Assembly (NCBI GenBank): GCA_002840435.1
Contig: PHAT01000005.1
Coordinates: 162,460 to 226,459, forward strand
Reading direction: 5' to 3'
DNA length: 64,000 nt
Origin: Deltaproteobacteria bacterium HGW-Deltaproteobacteria-6
GTDB taxonomy: Bacteria; Desulfobacterota; Syntrophia; Syntrophales; Smithellaceae
Of the stretch, positions 9,390-62,640 are shown piece by piece. Every line of letters begins with the position of its first letter. Positions within the stretch are counted from its first letter, which is position 1. Under the pieces are notes generated by a model, which saw only the letters and a list, made by a program, of their open reading frames with translations, did not search any database and was not told the origin of the DNA. Both the position numbers and the translations under genes were made by a program.

Positions 9390-11240
9390 TTATCGTCTTG
9401 CCATGTAAAATATAATTGCGGCCAGAATGGCGGCAGCCGGTAAAACAGTGCAAACCCAGGAAACCCATGTGTTGACACCCCCTTCGTACCGCAGGTATTC
9501 CGTCAGTTTGGATTGATCCGTGATGGAAAGCTGAGCGGCGGCAATTACCTTCTTCAAGCTGTTATGATAAAGCGAGTTGGCATAAAATGAAAAAGCCATC
9601 CATGGGACTATAATCACAATGAAACCGAGCACGTACTTACCGTTTATAGCACAAAGAGCGGAAAGGGCGACAACGCCTGTGAAAGCAAAGAACCATCCGT
9701 ACATTTTTCTGTAAAGCGCCCAGATCCCACCGCCAAAGAAAGCGGCCCAGTTCCAGCTTTCTTTCAGATCAGCGGGCTGCCAGTCAAAATCTTTGAATTT
9801 AGTCAGGTAGTAAATACAGTTTTTTCCTCCAAGGATGGCTTCATAAAGACTTTCATCCACTTCATGCGGTTCTTCCAGGCCGGACATATCGGTTGTCCTT
9901 TCTGCCGGCGACAATGGCGGCGATGCCCCTTCCTTCCTCTTTTCAATTTCCGCCTTGAATTGATTAACCGCTTTGATAAGCTCATCATCTTGCAATCTAT
10001 GCGTAGCCAGGGCAAATCCACGATGGTATATGTATTCCATTTCTTTTCTTAAAATTCTATCAAATTGACCTTCTTTTGCCGCTTCCTTGATTAGGGTGAT
10101 CATTTCGTCGTCCTGCATATCAGTGAAACTTTTCTTTCGGGATTTCAGGACAAACAGCAGTCCTCCTGCTGCCAGTATGATGACAACGATTACCACTCCC
10201 GCAAACTTGTTTTCCTCAACGGCTCTATTGACGGCCGCAATCCAATCATTTTGAGTGACACTGAAAACGGCGGCTGTTTCAAATTGTTTAGTGAGTTCAA
10301 TGGCCTTGTCGTAATCAGCAATAGCTCGATTGTAATTGCCAAGGCCATCATAGGCGGCACCCCGATTATTATAGGCAATAGCAAATTTAGGATCGAGTTC
10401 AATGGCCTTGTCATAATCGGCAATAGCCTGGTTGTGGTTGCCAAGATTATTATAGGTAGCTCCTCTGTTGTTGTAGGCCTCTGCATATTGCGGACTGAGC
10501 TCAATGGCTCTGTTAAAATCATCAATTGCCTGTTTGGTGTTGCCAAAACTATTGTATATGGTCCCGCGGTTATTATAGGCCTCTGCATATTGCGAACTGA
10601 GTTCAATGGCTTTATCAAAATCACTGATAGCCTGCTTGTAAATGCCCAGTTTTTTATATCCGGTCCCCCGATGATTATAGGCCGCTGCATATTGTGGACT
10701 GAGTTCAATGGCTTTGTCAAAATCACTGATAGCTTGTTCATTATGATCAAGCCTGCTGTAAGCAATCCCTCGGTTACAATAGACTGTTGCATCGTTTGGA
10801 CTAAGTTCGATCGCTTTGTTAAAATCGGCAATGGCCTGCTTATAATTACCAAGATTATTATGAACAAGTCCGCGATTACCGTAGAACACCGCATTGTGCG
10901 GGTTTAGCTCAATGGCCTTGTCAAAATCGACTACCGCCTGCTTGTAATTACCGAGTTTATGATGGGTTAATCCACGGTTATAAAAGGCTGCTGCATTCCT
11001 GGGGTTTAAAACAATGGCCTTGTCAAAATCGGCAACCGCCTGCTTGTAATTGCCAAGTTTGCTCTGGGCATTACCCCTGTTGTAATAGACCATTGCATCC
11101 TTCGGGCTCGGCTCTGTGGTTTTGTCATATACATCCATCACATCGTGGTTGACGGCTGTTGTTTCAGCAGATGCAAAACCCGGAATAAACAAAACAAGCA
11201 GGAAAGAGATGAGTATTGTTCGTTGAAGGGCAGACTTCAT
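9390..11240 (-). CDS. Exported TPR protein with membrane anchor and DUF2628-like C-terminus
   Basis: A 616-residue protein of unknown function. It has a signal peptide (hydrophobic residues 8-21, cleavage likely after FASA). Residues 46-317 hold eight consecutive 34-residue TPR units of the YNRG...KAIEL type, and a single membrane helix lies near residues 345-365. A charged segment follows, then a DUF2628-like module beginning ESWNWAAFFGGGIWALYRKMY with several further hydrophobic helices. The repeats should face the periplasm as a protein-binding surface. The ATG at 11240 is preceded by AAGGGG; a GTG four codons earlier is an alternative. A good promoter lies just upstream. Confidence 0.75.
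   Translation of the reverse strand: MKSALQRTILISFLLVLFIPGFASAETTAVNHDVMDVYDKTTEPSPKDAMVYYNRGNAQSKLGNYKQAVADFDKAIVLNPRNAAAFYNRGLTHHKLGNYKQAVVDFDKAIELNPHNAVFYGNRGLVHNNLGNYKQAIADFNKAIELSPNDATVYCNRGIAYSRLDHNEQAISDFDKAIELSPQYAAAYNHRGTGYKKLGIYKQAISDFDKAIELSSQYAEAYNNRGTIYNSFGNTKQAIDDFNRAIELSPQYAEAYNNRGATYNNLGNHNQAIADYDKAIELDPKFAIAYNNRGAAYDGLGNYNRAIADYDKAIELTKQFETAAVFSVTQNDWIAAVNRAVEENKFAGVVIVVIILAAGGLLFVLKSRKKSFTDMQDDEMITLIKEAAKEGQFDRILRKEMEYIYHRGFALATHRLQDDELIKAVNQFKAEIEKRKEGASPPLSPAERTTDMSGLEEPHEVDESLYEAILGGKNCIYYLTKFKDFDWQPADLKESWNWAAFFGGGIWALYRKMYGWFFAFTGVVALSALCAINGKYVLGFIVIIVPWMAFSFYANSLYHNSLKKVIAAAQLSITDQSKLTEYLRYEGGVNTWVSWVCTVLPAAAILAAIIFYMARR
10290..11105 (-). repeat. Eight tandem 102-bp coding repeats (TPR units)
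   Basis: Within the TPR/DUF2628 gene, eight head-to-tail units of 102 bp each encode one 34-residue TPR. Unit identity is high at protein level (YNRG, LGNYKQA, DFDKAIEL recur), and stretches of near-identical DNA recur as well. This suggests recent expansion by unequal crossing-over, and repeat number may vary between strains. Confidence 0.85.
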
Positions 11241-39484: not shown

Positions 39485-39560
39485 TGGTGGAGATGAGCAG
39501 GATCGAACTGCTGGCCTCTTGAATGCCATTCAAGCGCTCTCCCAGCTGAGCTACACCCCC
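39485..39560 (-). tRNA. tRNA-Ala (anticodon GGC)
   Basis: Minus-strand cloverleaf: acceptor GGGGGTG/CATCTCC with two G-T pairs, D-arm GCTC..GAGC, anticodon stem CTTGA/TCAAG with loop ATGGCAT (anticodon GGC, reads GCC/GCT), T-arm AGCAG TTCGATC CTGCT. CCA is encoded. It is 76 nt long. Confidence 0.95.
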
Positions 39561-39665: not shown

Positions 39666-39759
39666 GCCGGAGTGGTGAAACTGGTAGACGCAGGGGACTC
39701 AAAATCCCCCGCTCGCAAGGGCATCTCGGTTCGATTCCGAGCTCCGAGCTCCGGCACCA
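39666..39759 (+). tRNA. tRNA-Leu (anticodon CAA) with a 7-nt internal duplication
   Basis: The acceptor GCCGGAG pairs perfectly with CTCCGGC, followed by ACCA. The D-arm, the anticodon stem GGGGA/TCCCC with loop CTCAAAA (CAA, reads TTG), a long variable arm, and a T-arm CTCGG TTCGATT CCGAG are all present. Between the T-stem and the acceptor 3' strand there are seven extra bases: the sequence reads CCGAGCT CCGAGCT CCGGC, a tandem duplication. The gene is 94 nt with CCA, against 87 expected. Promoter and terminator are intact. It could be a functional variant, a pseudogene or an assembly error. Confidence 0.85.
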
Positions 39760-57520: not shown

Positions 57521-58348
57521 ATGGTAAAAGTTAATCTGGAAAAATGTATCGGATGCGGCACCTGCAAAGCGGACTGCACCGCCGCGAACATCGCTCTCAA
57601 AGACGGGAAGGCCGTTCACGGCAAATTCTGTCTGGAATGCGGACACTGCCTTGCCGTATGCCCGCAGCATGCGGTTGCCTTGGTTGGCAACTATGATCCT
57701 TCGGAGATTATCGAATATGATCCAAAGCAATTCGAGATTACGCCCGAGAGGCTTTTAAATTTTGTTAAATTCCGCCGGAGCATCCGTCAATATACGGGCG
57801 AACCGGTAAGCGATGCGGATATCGCGAAAATACTGGAGATGGGACGATACACGCAAACCGGCGCAAATATGCAGTTGCTGCGTTATATCGTCCTGACAAA
57901 GGATACGCTGCGGGAGATTACGCCGATTGCGCTCACGGCACTGGCGGAACTGGACGTCAAAAGCGTCGATAAGAAAGCGATGCGGGTGCCGCATCAGTAC
58001 CTGGATTTCCAATCCATCTGGGTCAACTGGCATCAGGTTTACCAGAAAAACCAGAGGGATTTATTGTTCCATGGCGCGCCCAACGCGCTTCTGATTGTCA
58101 GCCGGAAGTGCAACGAGGTAGACGGCTGCCTAAACGCGGGTCATCTCGAACTGATGATCAACGCGCTGGGCCTGGGCGCCTGCCTGATGGGTTTTGGAAC
58201 ATTCGCATTTGACGTCTCACCGGAATTAAAACAAAGAGTCGGCATTCGTGAAGATGAATCGGTCATCTTTATGATGGTTTTCGGCCATCCCAAAGTGAAG
58301 TATCTCAGAACCGTCAACCGCAAAAAAGTGAAATACGAAAAGATCTGA
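57521..58348 (+). CDS. Ferredoxin-nitroreductase fusion
   Basis: A 275-residue protein. Residues 1-55 form a two-[4Fe-4S] ferredoxin (CIGCGTCKADC and CLECGHCLAVCP); residues 75-265 are a flavin-dependent nitroreductase (FRRSIRQYTGEPV at the FMN site, GLGACLMGFG later). Such fusions are common in anaerobes and allow electrons to reach FMN from ferredoxin-type donors. The natural acceptor is unknown. A GGGAGAA site lies upstream. Confidence 0.9.
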   Translation: MVKVNLEKCIGCGTCKADCTAANIALKDGKAVHGKFCLECGHCLAVCPQHAVALVGNYDPSEIIEYDPKQFEITPERLLNFVKFRRSIRQYTGEPVSDADIAKILEMGRYTQTGANMQLLRYIVLTKDTLREITPIALTALAELDVKSVDKKAMRVPHQYLDFQSIWVNWHQVYQKNQRDLLFHGAPNALLIVSRKCNEVDGCLNAGHLELMINALGLGACLMGFGTFAFDVSPELKQRVGIREDESVIFMMVFGHPKVKYLRTVNRKKVKYEKI

Positions 58349-58385: not shown

Positions 58386-59330
58386 ATGAATCAACCATTC
58401 GGACCTATTAGAGTGATACCGGGAGAAGACAAGTGCAGATTTCCTCATTGCACGTCTCTGTTTATTGATGATGATGTTAAGGTTCTCATCGATCCGGGCG
58501 CCGGCTTGAAAACGCTCACGGCCCTGAAGCAGGAAGCTTCCATCGATCTGGTCATCAACACGCATTATCACTTTGATCACATTGCCTACAATTATCTTTT
58601 TGATCAGGCGCAGGTCCTCATCAATGCGCAGGAAGCCCCGTGTTTCCGGGAGAGAAAAAATTTGGGCGCCCTCCTGGGCATGGACGAGGTTTACGGTCCG
58701 GATTGGGTTTATGAATGGATGGCCAGGATAGCCGATCCTTCCACAAAGCAAAGCCCGTTTTCCCCTCAGAACCGACACGAGTGGTGGAAATCCACGGCCA
58801 GACTGGATAGAGAATACCGGTGGGGAGAGGTCATGGATTTCGGCAGGACCAGGATGGAGGTCATCGGAACCCCCGGACATTCGAAAGGCTTCAGCTGTAT
58901 GAATTTCCCCGACCATGGCGTGATGTATGTCGCGGACATCGACCTCACATCTTTCGGACCCTGGTACGCCGGTTCCGACGGTGATATCGATTGCTTCATC
59001 TCTTCGTGTGAAAAGCTCAAAGCGATCGATGGTGAATATTACATCACGGGACATGAAAAAGGTGTTCTGGGCAGAAAGGATTTTCTGGCCGGCCTGGACA
59101 GGTTCATCGAAATCATTCATGAACGGGACAGGAAGATTCTTTCGACACTGACAAGGCCTTTGTCATTACAGGAAATTGTCGATCAGGGCCTTATCTACGG
59201 CAGCAAATACCATGTCGATGCGTGGGTCTACATGTGGGAATTCATCATGATCAAAAAACATGTCCGGAGAATGATTGGCCGGGGACAGATTGACGACCTG
59301 GGAAACAAATTTCTGGGCAAAGGAGTGTAA
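58386..59330 (+). CDS. Metallo-beta-lactamase-fold hydrolase
   Basis: A 314-residue protein with the two-metal site HxHxDH in NTHYHFDHIAYN (near residue 60), a histidine in GTPGHSKGF, the bridging aspartate in YVADIDLTS and a final histidine in TGHEKG. The C-terminal 70 residues form a helical extension. Substrates in this broad family include thioesters, lactones and nucleic acids. The ribosome site is weak. It starts 37 bp after the nitroreductase, so co-transcription is likely. Confidence 0.87.
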   Translation: MNQPFGPIRVIPGEDKCRFPHCTSLFIDDDVKVLIDPGAGLKTLTALKQEASIDLVINTHYHFDHIAYNYLFDQAQVLINAQEAPCFRERKNLGALLGMDEVYGPDWVYEWMARIADPSTKQSPFSPQNRHEWWKSTARLDREYRWGEVMDFGRTRMEVIGTPGHSKGFSCMNFPDHGVMYVADIDLTSFGPWYAGSDGDIDCFISSCEKLKAIDGEYYITGHEKGVLGRKDFLAGLDRFIEIIHERDRKILSTLTRPLSLQEIVDQGLIYGSKYHVDAWVYMWEFIMIKKHVRRMIGRGQIDDLGNKFLGKGV

Positions 59331-59415
59331 ACGCCGGCAAAAAGTCCATGGGGCATAAAAATATGCTTTCATTAGGCAGGCAGATAAGGTAAACGCACCC
59401 ACTAATAAATTGTTT

Positions 59416-59568
59416 GATTCAGCAATCCGGAACACGGTGCAATTCCGTGACGGTCCCGCCGCTGTAAACGTGGACACCGGCTGCAAGGATACAACCACTG
59501 TCTGTTTTAACAGGACGGGAAGGTCGCAGCCGATGGATGATCCGTAAGTCAGAAGACCTGCTGAAATC
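59416..59568 (+). ncRNA. Cobalamin (B12) riboswitch
   Basis: The aptamer core is clear: ACGGTCCCGCCGCTGT, then GACACCGG, a CCACTG element, GGGAAGGTCGCAGCCGATG and the B12-box end CCGTAAGTCAGAAGACC. The outer stem pairs GATTCAGCA with TGCTGAAATC. A strong terminator starts 24 bases later, so corrinoid binding would be expected to end transcription before the dehydrogenase gene. No corrinoid synthesis or transport gene is adjacent. Confidence 0.95.
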
Positions 59569-59592
59569 ATTATGAACAAGGGATTCGATGGT

Positions 59593-59637
59593 AAAGGGTT
59601 CCTGCGGAAATTAATTTTATCCGCAGGAACCCTTTTT
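59593..59637 (+). terminator. Riboswitch expression-platform terminator
   Basis: A perfect 16-bp stem (AAAGGGTTCCTGCGGA with its complement) around an 11-base AT-rich loop, followed by five T. It lies between the cobalamin aptamer and the ribosome site (GAGGAGG at 59643) of the next gene. Confidence 0.9.
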
Positions 59638-59653
59638 GTATTGAGGAGGCGGC

Positions 59654-60619
59654 ATGAAGGCAGTTATTGTTGAAGAGATAGGTAGTTTCACCATCCGGGA
59701 CATGGAAACACCGGCGCCCGGCCGTGATGACGTTCTCGTTCGCGTTTCCGTAACCGGTCTGTGCCGGACGGATCTGAAACTCATCAGGGTGGGGCACAGG
59801 GATCTTGCGTTGCCCCGCATCCCCGGGGAAGAGGTCGTGGGCATCATTGGGACTCTCGGGACAGGTGTGAATGACTTTACCACAGGCCAGAGGGTCTACA
59901 TTTATCCCGGCACAAGTTGCGGCACCTGCCGGCCCTGCCGGTCAGGGGCGGAAAACCTCTGCAAAGATATGCAGATCATGGGGTTTCACCGTCACGGTGG
60001 TTTTGCCGAATATGTGGTAGCCCCCGCCCGCAGCCTCATTCCCGTGCCGGACAATATTACCGACGAAGAAGCGGTTTTTGCCGAGCCTCTTTCCTGCTGC
60101 CTCAACGCTCTGGAGCTTTCCCGCCTGAAAAAAGAAGAGGCCATTGCCATCTGGGGCGCCGGTCCTGCCGGTTCCCTGCTTGCCAGAAGCGCTCGCGCTC
60201 TTGGGGCGGAAGTCGCCATCATTGACACCGATGAACGCCGGGCTTCTCTGGTAAAGGGTTTTACGCGGCCTCCGGACAGAACTTTTGACGCAGCCATCGT
60301 CGCCGCAGGAAACCGGAATGCCTATGTGGAAGCCTTGGAACGCCTCGGGCCAAGGGGACGGCTTGTTGTGTTTTCCGGCCTTGCACCCGATCACTGCGCC
60401 ATCAAAACCGATTTCAACCAGTTGCATTATCTTGAACAGACCATCGTCGGCGCCTACGGTTGCAGCTTCAGACATGGCCGGGAGGCCCTTGCCCTCATCG
60501 GCAGCGGTGCTGTTCCCGTTTCCGACCTGATCTCTCATGCCCTGCCCCTCGGAGACCTGGAGAGAGCCCTCGGTCTTGTAGAGCGACGGGAGTGTATGAA
60601 GATTCATCTTTACCCGTAA
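59654..60619 (+). CDS. Zinc-type medium-chain dehydrogenase under riboswitch control
   Basis: A 321-residue MDR-family dehydrogenase related to sorbitol/threonine dehydrogenases. C37 (GLCRTD) and E60 are at catalytic-zinc positions, but the usual histidine of GHE is E59 (PGEEV). The structural zinc set C89, C92, C95, C103 is complete. The NAD(P) loop is WGAGPAGS near residue 173, followed by an acidic IIDTDE that favours NAD. It directly follows the cobalamin riboswitch and precedes the TrpD-like gene by 26 bp. Substrate unknown; a link to corrinoid metabolism is inferred from regulation only. Confidence 0.88.
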   Translation: MKAVIVEEIGSFTIRDMETPAPGRDDVLVRVSVTGLCRTDLKLIRVGHRDLALPRIPGEEVVGIIGTLGTGVNDFTTGQRVYIYPGTSCGTCRPCRSGAENLCKDMQIMGFHRHGGFAEYVVAPARSLIPVPDNITDEEAVFAEPLSCCLNALELSRLKKEEAIAIWGAGPAGSLLARSARALGAEVAIIDTDERRASLVKGFTRPPDRTFDAAIVAAGNRNAYVEALERLGPRGRLVVFSGLAPDHCAIKTDFNQLHYLEQTIVGAYGCSFRHGREALALIGSGAVPVSDLISHALPLGDLERALGLVERRECMKIHLYP

Positions 60620-60645
60620 AACAGAATAAAACGAGGAGACCGGCA

Positions 60646-61704
60646 ATGGACCAGCAGGTATTAAAGAATTTCGGCGGAAAGATCGAACGTCTGATTAACG
60701 GACAAAACCTCACTGAGGAAGAAACGTATTGTTCATTCAAACAGGTCTTATGCAACGAACAGCCCGATCTGCAGCAGGGAGCGTTTCTGGCCGCCCTGAC
60801 CGCCAAAGGTGAAACACACGATGAGATCGTCGGTGCGTGGCGCGCCATATATGAGTTTGACACGATACGCACGGCTTCCGATCTGCCCGGTCCTCTTTTT
60901 GAAAATTCCGGCACGGGTATGGACGGGATAAAAACATTCAACGTCAGCAGTGCCGCGGCCATCGTAGCCGCGGCCTGCGGCGTCACAATGGCCAGACATG
61001 GAGCACGGGCCATTACCTCTGCATGCGGCACCGTCGATATTCTTGAAGCGGTGGGAATCGATGTGGAATGCGATATATCAACCGTAGAGAAAAGTATCCG
61101 CGAGACAGGCATCGGTCTTTTCAACGGCACAAGCCCCAGGGTGCATCCCGGCGGTTTGGGCCGCATTCTCAGCCAGATACGATTCGGCTCCACCCTGAAC
61201 ATTGCCGCTTCTCTTGCCCATCCCGCTAAACCGTCCCTAGCCCTCAGGGGCGTTTACGCAGAATCGGTGATGGAGAAAGTAGCACAGGTCATGCAGCTCA
61301 TCGGTTATGAACGAGGCATGGTCGTACACGGAAGGAACGGAAAACCGGGAGCGGGAATGGATGAAATCTCGCCTTCCGGAGACACTCTCGTCATCGAGTT
61401 TTCCGGAAGCCGGGTGAAGCGCTATACCATTCAGCCCGGGGACGCGGGCATAAAGAAATGCGCCCTTGAAGATATTCTGGCAACCGGCAGCATCCGGACC
61501 GAGGCCCGGCGGTTTGTCGAGGTCGTCTCCGGCCGGTCCCATCAACCCTGTATCGACTTCACCTGCCTGAACGCCGGGGCAATCCTCTACGTGGCGGGCA
61601 AGGCCGCTGATCTGAAAAATGGCGTGGAAATGAGTAGGGAAACCATCATGACGGGAAGGGCCCTGAGCAAGCTGAAGGAATGGCGGGCGGTTCAAGGAAG
61701 ATAA
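60646..61704 (+). CDS. Divergent anthranilate-phosphoribosyltransferase (TrpD)-like protein
   Basis: A 352-residue member of the TrpD/thymidine-phosphorylase fold. The PRPP loop is GTGMDGIKTFN (89-99; TrpD has GTGGDG), followed by ARHGAR (117-121), TSACGTVD and a DE pair at 239-240 for magnesium. The region where TrpD has RTxFNxLGPLxNP reads FGSTLNIAASLAHPAKP, so anthranilate may not be the substrate. No other tryptophan gene is near. It starts with GAGGAG upstream, 26 bp after the riboswitch-controlled dehydrogenase. A phosphoribosyl or ribosyl transfer to an unusual base, possibly a cobamide lower ligand, is speculation from context. Confidence 0.8.
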   Translation: MDQQVLKNFGGKIERLINGQNLTEEETYCSFKQVLCNEQPDLQQGAFLAALTAKGETHDEIVGAWRAIYEFDTIRTASDLPGPLFENSGTGMDGIKTFNVSSAAAIVAAACGVTMARHGARAITSACGTVDILEAVGIDVECDISTVEKSIRETGIGLFNGTSPRVHPGGLGRILSQIRFGSTLNIAASLAHPAKPSLALRGVYAESVMEKVAQVMQLIGYERGMVVHGRNGKPGAGMDEISPSGDTLVIEFSGSRVKRYTIQPGDAGIKKCALEDILATGSIRTEARRFVEVVSGRSHQPCIDFTCLNAGAILYVAGKAADLKNGVEMSRETIMTGRALSKLKEWRAVQGR

Positions 61705-61812: not shown

Positions 61813-62640
61813 ATGGCAATAATTCCTGAAAAAATAATCGATTTTCATGTCCATCTGTTTCCGGATAAGCTTTTTGACGCCATCTGGAGTTCTTTTGTTA
61901 AAAATTATAACTGGAATATCATCCATCAATATTATTGCGGGGAATGCATAGCGCGTCTGAGAAAGGGAGGCGTCGGAACCATCGTCTATTCCAACTACGC
62001 CCACCGTGCCGATATTGCCTTGGGCCTGAACCAATGGAATGTTAAAATCCTTCAGGAATATGACGACCTTTACTGCTTTGCCGCGTATCACCCGGACGAT
62101 AAACACGCCCTGGAAATGGCTGAGCGTCTTCTCGAAAACCCGAAGATACTCGGATTCAAACTCCACCACCTTGTCCAGAATTTTTATCCGTGCGATGTTC
62201 GGCTCTTCCCCCTGTATGAAATGATCATCAGGAAAAAGAAGCATCTATTGTTTCACGCAGGAACGGGACCCGTGGGGAATCCATATGTCGGTCTTGAACC
62301 TTTCCTGAAGGTGCTTGAAAAATTCCCGGATCTGCCCGCAACCGTCGCCCACATGGGGGCGCATGAATATAGCGGGTTCATAACACTTTTAGATCGATAT
62401 CCGCGATTGTACCTGGACACCGCCTTCTGTTTTTTGCCGCCGCCGTATGAAGGCTATCAACTGGGCCCCGATTATCTTGAAAAGTATCAATCAAGAATTT
62501 TATACGGTTCGGATTATCCCAACCTGATAACACCGCGGGAAGCGGAGATTGAAAACTTGCTGAAGATGAACCTGTCTCAGGAATTTTACGATAAAATATT
62601 TCACGATAACGGCATGGCTCTGATCCGTTCCCTGACTTGA
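61813..62640 (+). CDS. Amidohydrolase-superfamily (metal-dependent TIM barrel) protein
   Basis: A 275-residue protein of the amidohydrolase-2 type. The first metal motif is HVHLFPD (residues 12-18, HxH), with a histidine in LLFHAGTG, another in VAHMGAHE, and the catalytic aspartate in YGSDYPN. Enzymes of this group hydrolyse or decarboxylate small aromatic or cyclic compounds. It follows the TrpD-like gene by 108 bp but appears to have its own palindromic promoter. Substrate unknown. Confidence 0.85.
   Translation: MAIIPEKIIDFHVHLFPDKLFDAIWSSFVKNYNWNIIHQYYCGECIARLRKGGVGTIVYSNYAHRADIALGLNQWNVKILQEYDDLYCFAAYHPDDKHALEMAERLLENPKILGFKLHHLVQNFYPCDVRLFPLYEMIIRKKKHLLFHAGTGPVGNPYVGLEPFLKVLEKFPDLPATVAHMGAHEYSGFITLLDRYPRLYLDTAFCFLPPPYEGYQLGPDYLEKYQSRILYGSDYPNLITPREAEIENLLKMNLSQEFYDKIFHDNGMALIRSLT

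Follow-up and report, generated by a model that had tools for sequence, protein, structure and literature searches.

We analysed a window of 64,000 nucleotides from contig PHAT01000005.1 (positions 162,460 to 226,459, forward strand) of Deltaproteobacteria bacterium HGW-Deltaproteobacteria-6, and concentrated on a compact cluster in which a cobalamin riboswitch with an intrinsic terminator precedes the genes for a zinc-type dehydrogenase of the medium-chain dehydrogenase/reductase (MDR) type, here called ADH, and for a paralogue of the phosphoribosyltransferase TrpD, here called TrpD* (Table 1). The aptamer is one of the two cobalamin riboswitches of the 4.1 Mb genome (G000; other genomes and loci are cited by G and L numbers where they need to be told apart). 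Its Rfam match lies well over the gathering score of RF00174, 31.5 bits, and begins 13 bases ahead of where the first-pass annotation of this DNA had placed it. The segment that follows, 59590-59645, is predicted to form a long hairpin and then a run of T's, and none of 200 shuffled sequences folded as well; the hairpin was absent from the output of a generic terminator scan. Such a hairpin fits an OFF switch operated by cobamide, as predicted from the fold.

Both genes follow on the same strand, with 26 bases between the end of ADH and the ATG that we chose as the start of TrpD*; the mechanical open reading frame opens at a TTG at position 60460. The first-pass annotation had described, from the letters alone, a B12 aptamer with its own terminator, a zinc-type dehydrogenase and a TrpD relative in tight order, and altered TrpD motifs; the Rfam match, the fold, the Pfam domains and the alignments bear out this description, the TrpD signatures GTGGD and KHGN being GTGMD and RHGA in the window. 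The order of riboswitch and genes in the window is not due to chance, because the same arrangement recurs in distant genomes.

Table 1. Features of the window and related features of other loci and genomes (positions without a prefix are those of the window)
Feature	Position	Strand	Description
Cobalamin riboswitch aptamer (RF00174)	59403-59579	+	83.1 bits, E 5.6e-19, full model 1-189
Intrinsic terminator of the riboswitch (expression platform)	59593-59637	+	Hairpin and T run; fold -28.8 kcal/mol, z-score -6.1
ADH, zinc-type MDR dehydrogenase	59654-60619	+	321 amino acids; Pfam ADH_N, ADH_zinc_N
TrpD*, TrpD-family phosphoribosyltransferase paralogue	60646-61704	+	352 amino acids; Pfam Glycos_transf_3 and its N-domain
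Other cobalamin riboswitch region (L148)	G000:C5:787648-794119		TonB-type and BtuF-type genes, CobT, CobS, CbiR, CobU
Ferredoxin-nitroreductase	57521-58348
Metallo-beta-lactamase-fold protein	58386-59330
Amidohydrolase	61813-62640
tRNA-like stretch	39668-39746	+	Weak tRNA match, 34 bits
tRNA	39488-39560	-	Better tRNA match
Ribbon-helix-helix gene, start	L137:4762	-
Ribbon-helix-helix gene, start	L138:7127	+
Ribbon-helix-helix gene, start	L139:6529	-
Ribbon-helix-helix gene, start	L140:8722	+
Ribbon-helix-helix gene, start	L141:4934	+
Ribbon-helix-helix gene, start	L142:3737	+
Small protein between TrpD* and ADH	L033:~9417-9635	+	About 70 residues
Small protein between TrpD* and ADH	L035:9161-9379	+	About 70 residues
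Break in TrpD* copy	L009:4670-4672		In-frame TAA
Broken TrpD* copy	L038:7825-8930	-	Frameshift and TAG
Divergent TrpD* relative	L037:7690-8844	+	GTGSD, KKGA
Divergent TrpD* relative	L039:7889-8950	+	GTGSD, KKGA
Apparent tryptophan operon	L027:6220-12743	-	Includes a canonical TrpD

The ADH-TrpD* pair is conserved in bacteria and archaea

A scan of GTDB genomes retrieved at least eight TrpD* relatives with 51-61% identity, six from Methanothrix/Methanosaeta and two Desulfobacterial (L006 and L009), and ADH lay directly upstream of TrpD* in 8/8 among the matches listed. L009 has its own riboswitch (76 bits) ahead of ADH; the contig of L006, which our tree places among the relatives of the window, opens inside ADH. 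Profile searches covered two phyla, that of the window and the archaeal one to which G395, the source of L005, and Methanothrix belong. Among 395 genomes of the window's phylum there were 15 matches at E 1e-80 or better: 12 strong ones (at least 433 bits, the window included), two divergent ones (L037 and L039) and a broken one (L038, in G046). In the archaeal phylum, 23 genomes passed the E limit, and those with at least 513 bits were taken as strong carriers (12/196 genomes); the other 11, with at most 271 bits, were read as ordinary TrpD from the score alone. Six-frame searches placed ADH next to TrpD* in 23 of these 24 strong loci, 11/12 bacterial and 12/12 archaeal.

Of the 12 strong bacterial loci, 10 have a cobalamin riboswitch at the gathering score directly upstream, and the count becomes 12/15 with the divergent and broken copies. 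The three misses are L035, with a weak match (28.3 vs 31.5 bits), L036, which has only 150 bases of contig upstream, and L039, where there is none. As a control, we searched up to 1.5 kb on each side of 20 of the 21 canonical TrpD loci and found no cobalamin riboswitch (0/20), so that the two sets differ with a Fisher p of 1e-6 if relatedness is ignored. In 14 loci, among them L009 and L035 with its weak match, the first gene begins 67-291 bases after the aptamer ends (some of the starts are approximate), and terminator hairpins of -23 kcal/mol or better occur in 9 of the 14 riboswitch loci, among them the window.

In six of the 11 archaeal loci L137-L147, the TrpD*/ADH/CobT cluster is accompanied by a divergently oriented gene whose product of about 300-313 residues starts with a ribbon-helix-helix domain (Table 1). 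In L139, L140 and L141 this protein matches PF01402 above the cut-off, and it has an AIR synthase-like region (PF00586, over the cut-off in one). It may be a local regulator in the archaeal loci, because no riboswitch was found there.

The pair is linked to CobT

CobT activates the lower ligand of cobamides. It was adjacent or fused to the pair in 14 of the 24 strong loci in six-frame searches, comprising 6/12 bacterial loci (L026, L027, L028, L030, L034 and L035) and 8/12 archaeal ones (G395/L005, L140-L144, L146 and L147). Likewise, CobT adjoins the pair in 6/6 Methanothrix loci among the matches listed in the GTDB scan, L005 belonging to both sets. The bacterial-type CobT model TIGR03160 was confirmed in L026, L030, L035, L141 and L146, and the archaeal-type TIGR00303 in L005 and L147; the remaining CobT calls rest on profiles built from these loci. 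In L028, L035 and L038, the last being the broken-TrpD* locus and outside the 24 strong loci, both functions are fused in one protein, with ADH_N at the start and DBI_PRT (CobT) at the end. Further cobamide genes also occur nearby: CobS follows CobT in L027 and L030, the latter with CobU, and CbiD lies within about 6 kb of the pair in L031. The pair thus shows linkage to CobT or CobS in unrelated genomes, joined in bacteria by the riboswitch. Judged from gene order, the pathway to which it would belong is best indicated by its position beside two unlike CobT families and its fusion to a member of one of these.

Two of these genomes show particular arrangements. In L027, the cluster of riboswitch, ADH, TrpD*, CobT and CobS is immediately preceded on its own strand by an apparent tryptophan operon, in which all trp genes but TrpD were identified by eye. 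The genome G088 (L061, L077, L081, L082, L083 and L149) contains four PF02277 matches, of which one adjoins a BzaF-type gene, one is fused to ADH and one stands beside CobS-/CobU-like genes (named by eye).

TrpD* is a TrpD paralogue with an altered acceptor site

TrpD* of the window scores 262.6 bits with the TrpD model TIGR01245 and passes its cut-off of 199.05; the canonical TrpD of the same genome scores 423 bits. The cut-off evidently fails to exclude the paralogue, and this NCBI model would label it an anthranilate phosphoribosyltransferase (AnPRT), placing it in tryptophan synthesis. A canonical TrpD was present besides TrpD* in 20/20 genomes tested, with TIGR01245 scores of 389-433 bits versus 232-289 for TrpD* proteins without a frame break. 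The two also separate in the tree, where the canonical proteins form a group with 100/100 support and the TrpD* proteins another with 95/89, the divergent pair L037/L039 standing beside the latter.

We compared the two sets in a joint alignment of 29 TrpD* rows, near-copies included, and 21 canonical rows, G142 carrying two. The alignment excludes L009 for its in-frame TAA, L010 because its contig ends there, and L038 for its frameshift and TAG; the divergent L037 and L039 were kept separate. Common to both sets are G89, T90, G91, D93, N99, S101, H118, D239 and E240, so that TrpD* retains the GTG, N-x-S and D-E signatures that in AnPRT form the site for phosphoribosyl pyrophosphate (PRPP) and metal. 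The Asn of KHGN and the Arg of the PVR motif, presumably contacts of anthranilate and the latter presumably the anchor of its carboxylate, are both kept in 21/21 canonical rows. TrpD* has neither: the Asn is Ala or Ser and the Arg is Leu in 29/29 rows, and KHGN becomes (K/R)HG(A/S) in most of them. In addition, GTGGD is changed to GTGMD in 28/29. The PDB title of entry 4x58 (variant N138A) agrees with the role assumed for the KHGN Asn. From these residues, TrpD* should still bind PRPP yet not hold anthranilate, and its acceptor is probably less acidic than anthranilate. TrpD* is not the tryptophan-pathway enzyme of its genomes.

Structure prediction with AlphaFold2 gave a model of TrpD* with a predicted local distance difference test score of 91.6, and all 50 PDB matches listed by Foldseek were AnPRT, with template modelling scores by query length of 0.80-0.89. 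TrpD* therefore resembles TrpD in its whole fold and in the PRPP/metal-site residues, and differs from it in the three motifs, in its separate tree group and in its lower model scores. Other relatives of the fold matched poorly. The score with the YbiB-type model PRK08136 was 32.7 bits (cut-off 185), which sets TrpD* apart from the YbiB-type proteins, for which the name 'TrpD2' is used; models of thymidine, AMP and pyrimidine-nucleoside phosphorylases matched weakly, with at most 49.7 bits; and no match to the CobT families PF02277 and TIGR00303 appeared at E 0.001 in Pfam and NCBIfam scans of the window protein. Among plasmids, TrpD* retrieved 26 records, all with less than 60% identity, the best 20 of 26 having at most 36.2% and being mostly annotated trpD.

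Some copies depart from the common type. Those of L009 and L038 are broken, by decay or assembly error, and the divergent relatives of L037 and L039 also stand beside ADH, that of L037 being preceded by a cobalamin riboswitch of 94 bits.

The dehydrogenase partner

ADH of the window matches the Pfam domains ADH_N (101.1 bits) and ADH_zinc_N (32.3 bits), both over the cut-off. The His of its GHE motif, which we take to be a ligand of the catalytic zinc, is replaced by Glu (GEE) in the window, L026, L029 and L031, and is kept in 17 other loci with the pattern (23 loci tried, two without a pattern match); the window protein thus lacks the catalytic-zinc His expected of a zinc-binding MDR dehydrogenase. 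It also fell short of the threonine 3-dehydrogenase models, with 142.9 bits (cut-off 380) and 135.6 bits (cut-off 458.35). Indeed, all the listed NCBIfam models score far under their cut-offs, and many MDR families score alike. In L033, L035 and L038, a protein of about 70 residues is encoded between TrpD* and ADH; that of L035 has no Pfam match.

Cobamide metabolism and known sources of the lower ligand

The other riboswitch of G000 heads a region of cobamide genes (L148 in Table 1), whose TonB-type and BtuF-type members were named from their sequence and whose CbiR matches NF041277 with 278 bits (cut-off 105). We found no match to CbiD, a marker of anaerobic corrin-ring synthesis, in G000 nor in four others of the 24 genomes searched; in a draft genome, absence is no proof. 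Because CbiD gave no match and CbiR, CobT, CobS and CobU are present, G000 looks like a cobamide remodeller, an importer that would strip foreign cobamides with CbiR and then rebuild them. CbiR is described as removing the cobamide lower ligand in excerpts of PMC7733943; the pair, under the second riboswitch, would instead supply a new one, which fits the need of G000 for a lower ligand.

BluB destroys flavin and needs oxygen, and none of the 20 genomes with TrpD* contained it above the cut-off (best 109 vs 150 bits). A bluB/cobT2 fusion is known (PMC4657239, in part), and this base supply fused to CobT parallels the ADH::CobT proteins, although BluB belongs to an unrelated family. ThiC-family proteins occur in 19 of the same 20 genomes, as a single copy in 15 of these. 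Those of G339, G088 and G161 form a BzaF-type clade with 75-79% identity, and stand beside CobT in G088 and G161; the assignment of the G088 protein (L061) rests on tree and identity. G395 has two extra ThiC-family copies that branch beside this clade with moderate support (81/95), and G570 has three copies in all, of a type that could not be assigned.

The anaerobic benzimidazole pathway of BzaF/BzaAB begins from aminoimidazole ribotide, according to excerpts of PMC8123684 and PMC8620254. As is proposed for the pair, it supplies a lower ligand, and BzaF-type genes adjoin CobT in G088 and G161, but its enzymes are ThiC-like, of another family than TrpD*. A BzaF-type profile made from the proteins of G339 and G161, of which one is a TrpD* genome, and run over the window's phylum, matched 80/395 genomes, which include only 2/12 strong TrpD* carriers and 78/383 others (p = 1). 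TrpD* as a simple replacement for BzaF is therefore not supported, with neither avoidance nor enrichment at this level and a lean towards co-occurrence at a stricter one (see below). In G088, the BzaF-type gene stands with one CobT and TrpD* elsewhere with an ADH::CobT fusion, which suggests that there may be two separate base systems in one cell.

A proposed role in lower-ligand supply

We consider it probable that ADH and TrpD* form a cobamide lower-ligand module, supplying the base or its precursor and acting together with CobT rather than in its stead. At low cobamide, the riboswitch would let transcription through the terminator, as the predicted direction of the switch implies, and ADH and TrpD* would be made. 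TrpD* would then transfer phosphoribose from PRPP to a small compound, aromatic or azole, other than anthranilate, and ADH might oxidise or reduce the precursor or the product, the substrates of both being guesses. The resulting base or precursor would go to CobT, which would make the alpha-ribotide that CobS joins to activated cobinamide, and TrpD* would presumably act before or alongside CobT. One detailed version, in which TrpD* would attach phosphoribose to an arylamine and ADH would oxidise the sugar, whose C1 would then complete the imidazole ring, draws on an analogy with C1 of the ribityl group in BluB catalysis and with the ribose carbons in indole synthesis, and seems to us rather unlikely in this exact form. 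The wider proposal of an anaerobic lower-ligand route shared by Desulfobacteria-like bacteria and Methanothrix-type archaea, with TrpD* acting on an arylamine or azole, ADH oxidising the product and the base, possibly one new to cobamides, passing directly to CobT, in some loci inside an ADH::CobT fusion, is one that we put forward tentatively and would not yet favour over its denial.

The first-pass annotation had compared TrpD* to CobT, as an enzyme doing a similar step, and had raised the question of co-occurrence with an absence of cobT. Its placing in cobamide metabolism beside lower-ligand activation stands, given the riboswitches, the CobT neighbours and fusions and the residues of the paralogue. 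TrpD* standing in for CobT does not. CobT (PF02277) is found in all 15 genomes of the phylum with a TrpD-like match and in those of L006 and L009, that is, in 17/20, and the three genomes without PF02277 are Methanothrix, with homologues of the TIGR00303-matching L005 protein beside the pair; we consequently rejected TrpD* as a CobT substitute. The two enzymes are alike in transferring phosphoribosyl groups, as proposed for TrpD*, in the same pathway neighbourhood, and CobT is fused to ADH in three loci; they differ in family, and CobT is retained beside TrpD* or elsewhere in the genome. A B12-independent bypass of a B12 enzyme, also contemplated in that annotation, has nothing in the loci pointing to it.

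Several observations weigh against the role proposed here. Some concern the constancy of the arrangement. CobT is not adjacent in 6/12 bacterial and 4/12 archaeal loci, that of the window included; no ADH is visible in L036, which lies at the edge of its contig and whose neighbouring gene looks by eye like one for an oxidoreductase; and L039 has the pair with no riboswitch upstream. Nor was any cobalamin riboswitch found in the six archaeal loci of the GTDB scan or in the 11 loci L137-L147, so that the link to B12 riboswitches elsewhere that the annotation relied on holds for bacteria and not for the archaeal loci. The counts are moreover not independent, as they include near-copies (L141-L143, L137-L139 and the Methanothrix set), and the presence of CobT was counted among TrpD* carriers. 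Others concern the chemistry. No second base-synthesis enzyme conserved in the TrpD* clusters was seen by eye. TrpD* carriers do not avoid genomes with the BzaF-type 5-hydroxybenzimidazole synthase, and the 11 matches of at least 800 bits fall in 2/12 TrpD* genomes versus 9/383 others, with p = 0.04 towards co-occurrence. Finally, TrpD enzymes invert alpha-PRPP to a beta-product, and TrpD* is therefore unlikely to make the alpha-ribotide itself. This stereochemistry is the reason for placing TrpD* before CobT or on the donor side of CobT.

The donor side is the basis of another explanation, in which TrpD* would regenerate or replace nicotinate mononucleotide, for instance by phosphoribosylating the nicotinate or another pyridine released by CobT, with PRPP driving alpha-ribotide formation and ADH in an ancillary redox task. 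It would account for CobT, and not a base synthase, being the constant neighbour, as well as for the CobT fusions, and the beta-linked product of TrpD suits the beta-linked donor of CobT. We nevertheless hold it to be improbable, because the Leu in place of the PVR Arg in 29/29 rows fits poorly with a carboxylated pyridine, and because it leaves no clear job for ADH, a more regular companion of TrpD* than CobT is and the enzyme that occurs in fusion with CobT. ADH is likewise left unexplained if TrpD* worked in the releasing direction, as the nucleoside phosphorylases of its superfamily do, and took the lower ligand, a purine or some other base, from a nucleotide. Purine lower ligands are known (excerpts of PMC8123684), and the weak matches to the three phosphorylase models point the same way; the score of 262.6 bits with the TrpD model, as against at most 49.7 for any phosphorylase model, makes this quite improbable.

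The best ADH matches include models and structures of threonine 3-dehydrogenase, which would suit a task of the pair at another point of the nucleotide loop, with ADH making the aminopropanol linker or both enzymes in an unrecognised ribose modification. Given that many MDR families score alike, that the listed NCBIfam models stay far below their cut-offs and that a role in the linker explains neither TrpD* nor the CobT fusion, we regard this as very improbable. If TrpD* were simply a second, ordinary AnPRT that had a dehydrogenase beside it and came under the riboswitch by accident, this would agree with the TIGR01245 score (262.6 vs 199.05) and with the predicted AnPRT fold, but such a reading is largely contradicted by the linkage to riboswitch and CobT in bacteria and to CobT in archaea. 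We rejected it, as next to incredible, because the genomes have a separate canonical copy (20/20) and TrpD* has lost the anthranilate-linked residues (29/29).

Other features of the window

Three genes near the cluster, for a ferredoxin-nitroreductase, a metallo-beta-lactamase-fold protein and an amidohydrolase (Table 1), were considered as parts of the system and rejected, as none was noticed with the pair in other loci when the lists of open reading frames were inspected by eye, with no search made for them. At some distance, the window has a weak tRNA match, separated by about 110 bases from a stronger one on the opposite strand; the weakly matching stretch may be a degenerate tRNA.

Significance of the pair

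In the open-licence PMC literature, covered mainly by title, we found no papers linking TrpD to cobT, cobamide or a cobalamin riboswitch. Excerpts of a Chlorobium paper (PMC8620254) mention low-coverage regions with cobalamin genes that include trpD, an unnamed dehydrogenase, an amidohydrolase and also a sugar phosphate epimerase; the first two may or may not be the same pair. According to excerpts of a survey of 11,000 bacterial species (PMC6461909), no more than 58% of the cobamide producers had a predictable lower ligand.

Whether a given enzyme or organism can use a cobamide depends on the lower ligand. The ADH-TrpD* pair is compact and recognisable, and it is linked with CobT in bacteria and archaea alike and, in bacteria, also with cobalamin riboswitches. 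If the pair does supply the base, it would fill a gap in organisms without BluB (20/20) and mostly without a BzaF-type match (10/12 in the phylum), and would become a marker for predicting cobamide structure. A new base pathway, if proven, would be more than a variant within cobamide assembly.

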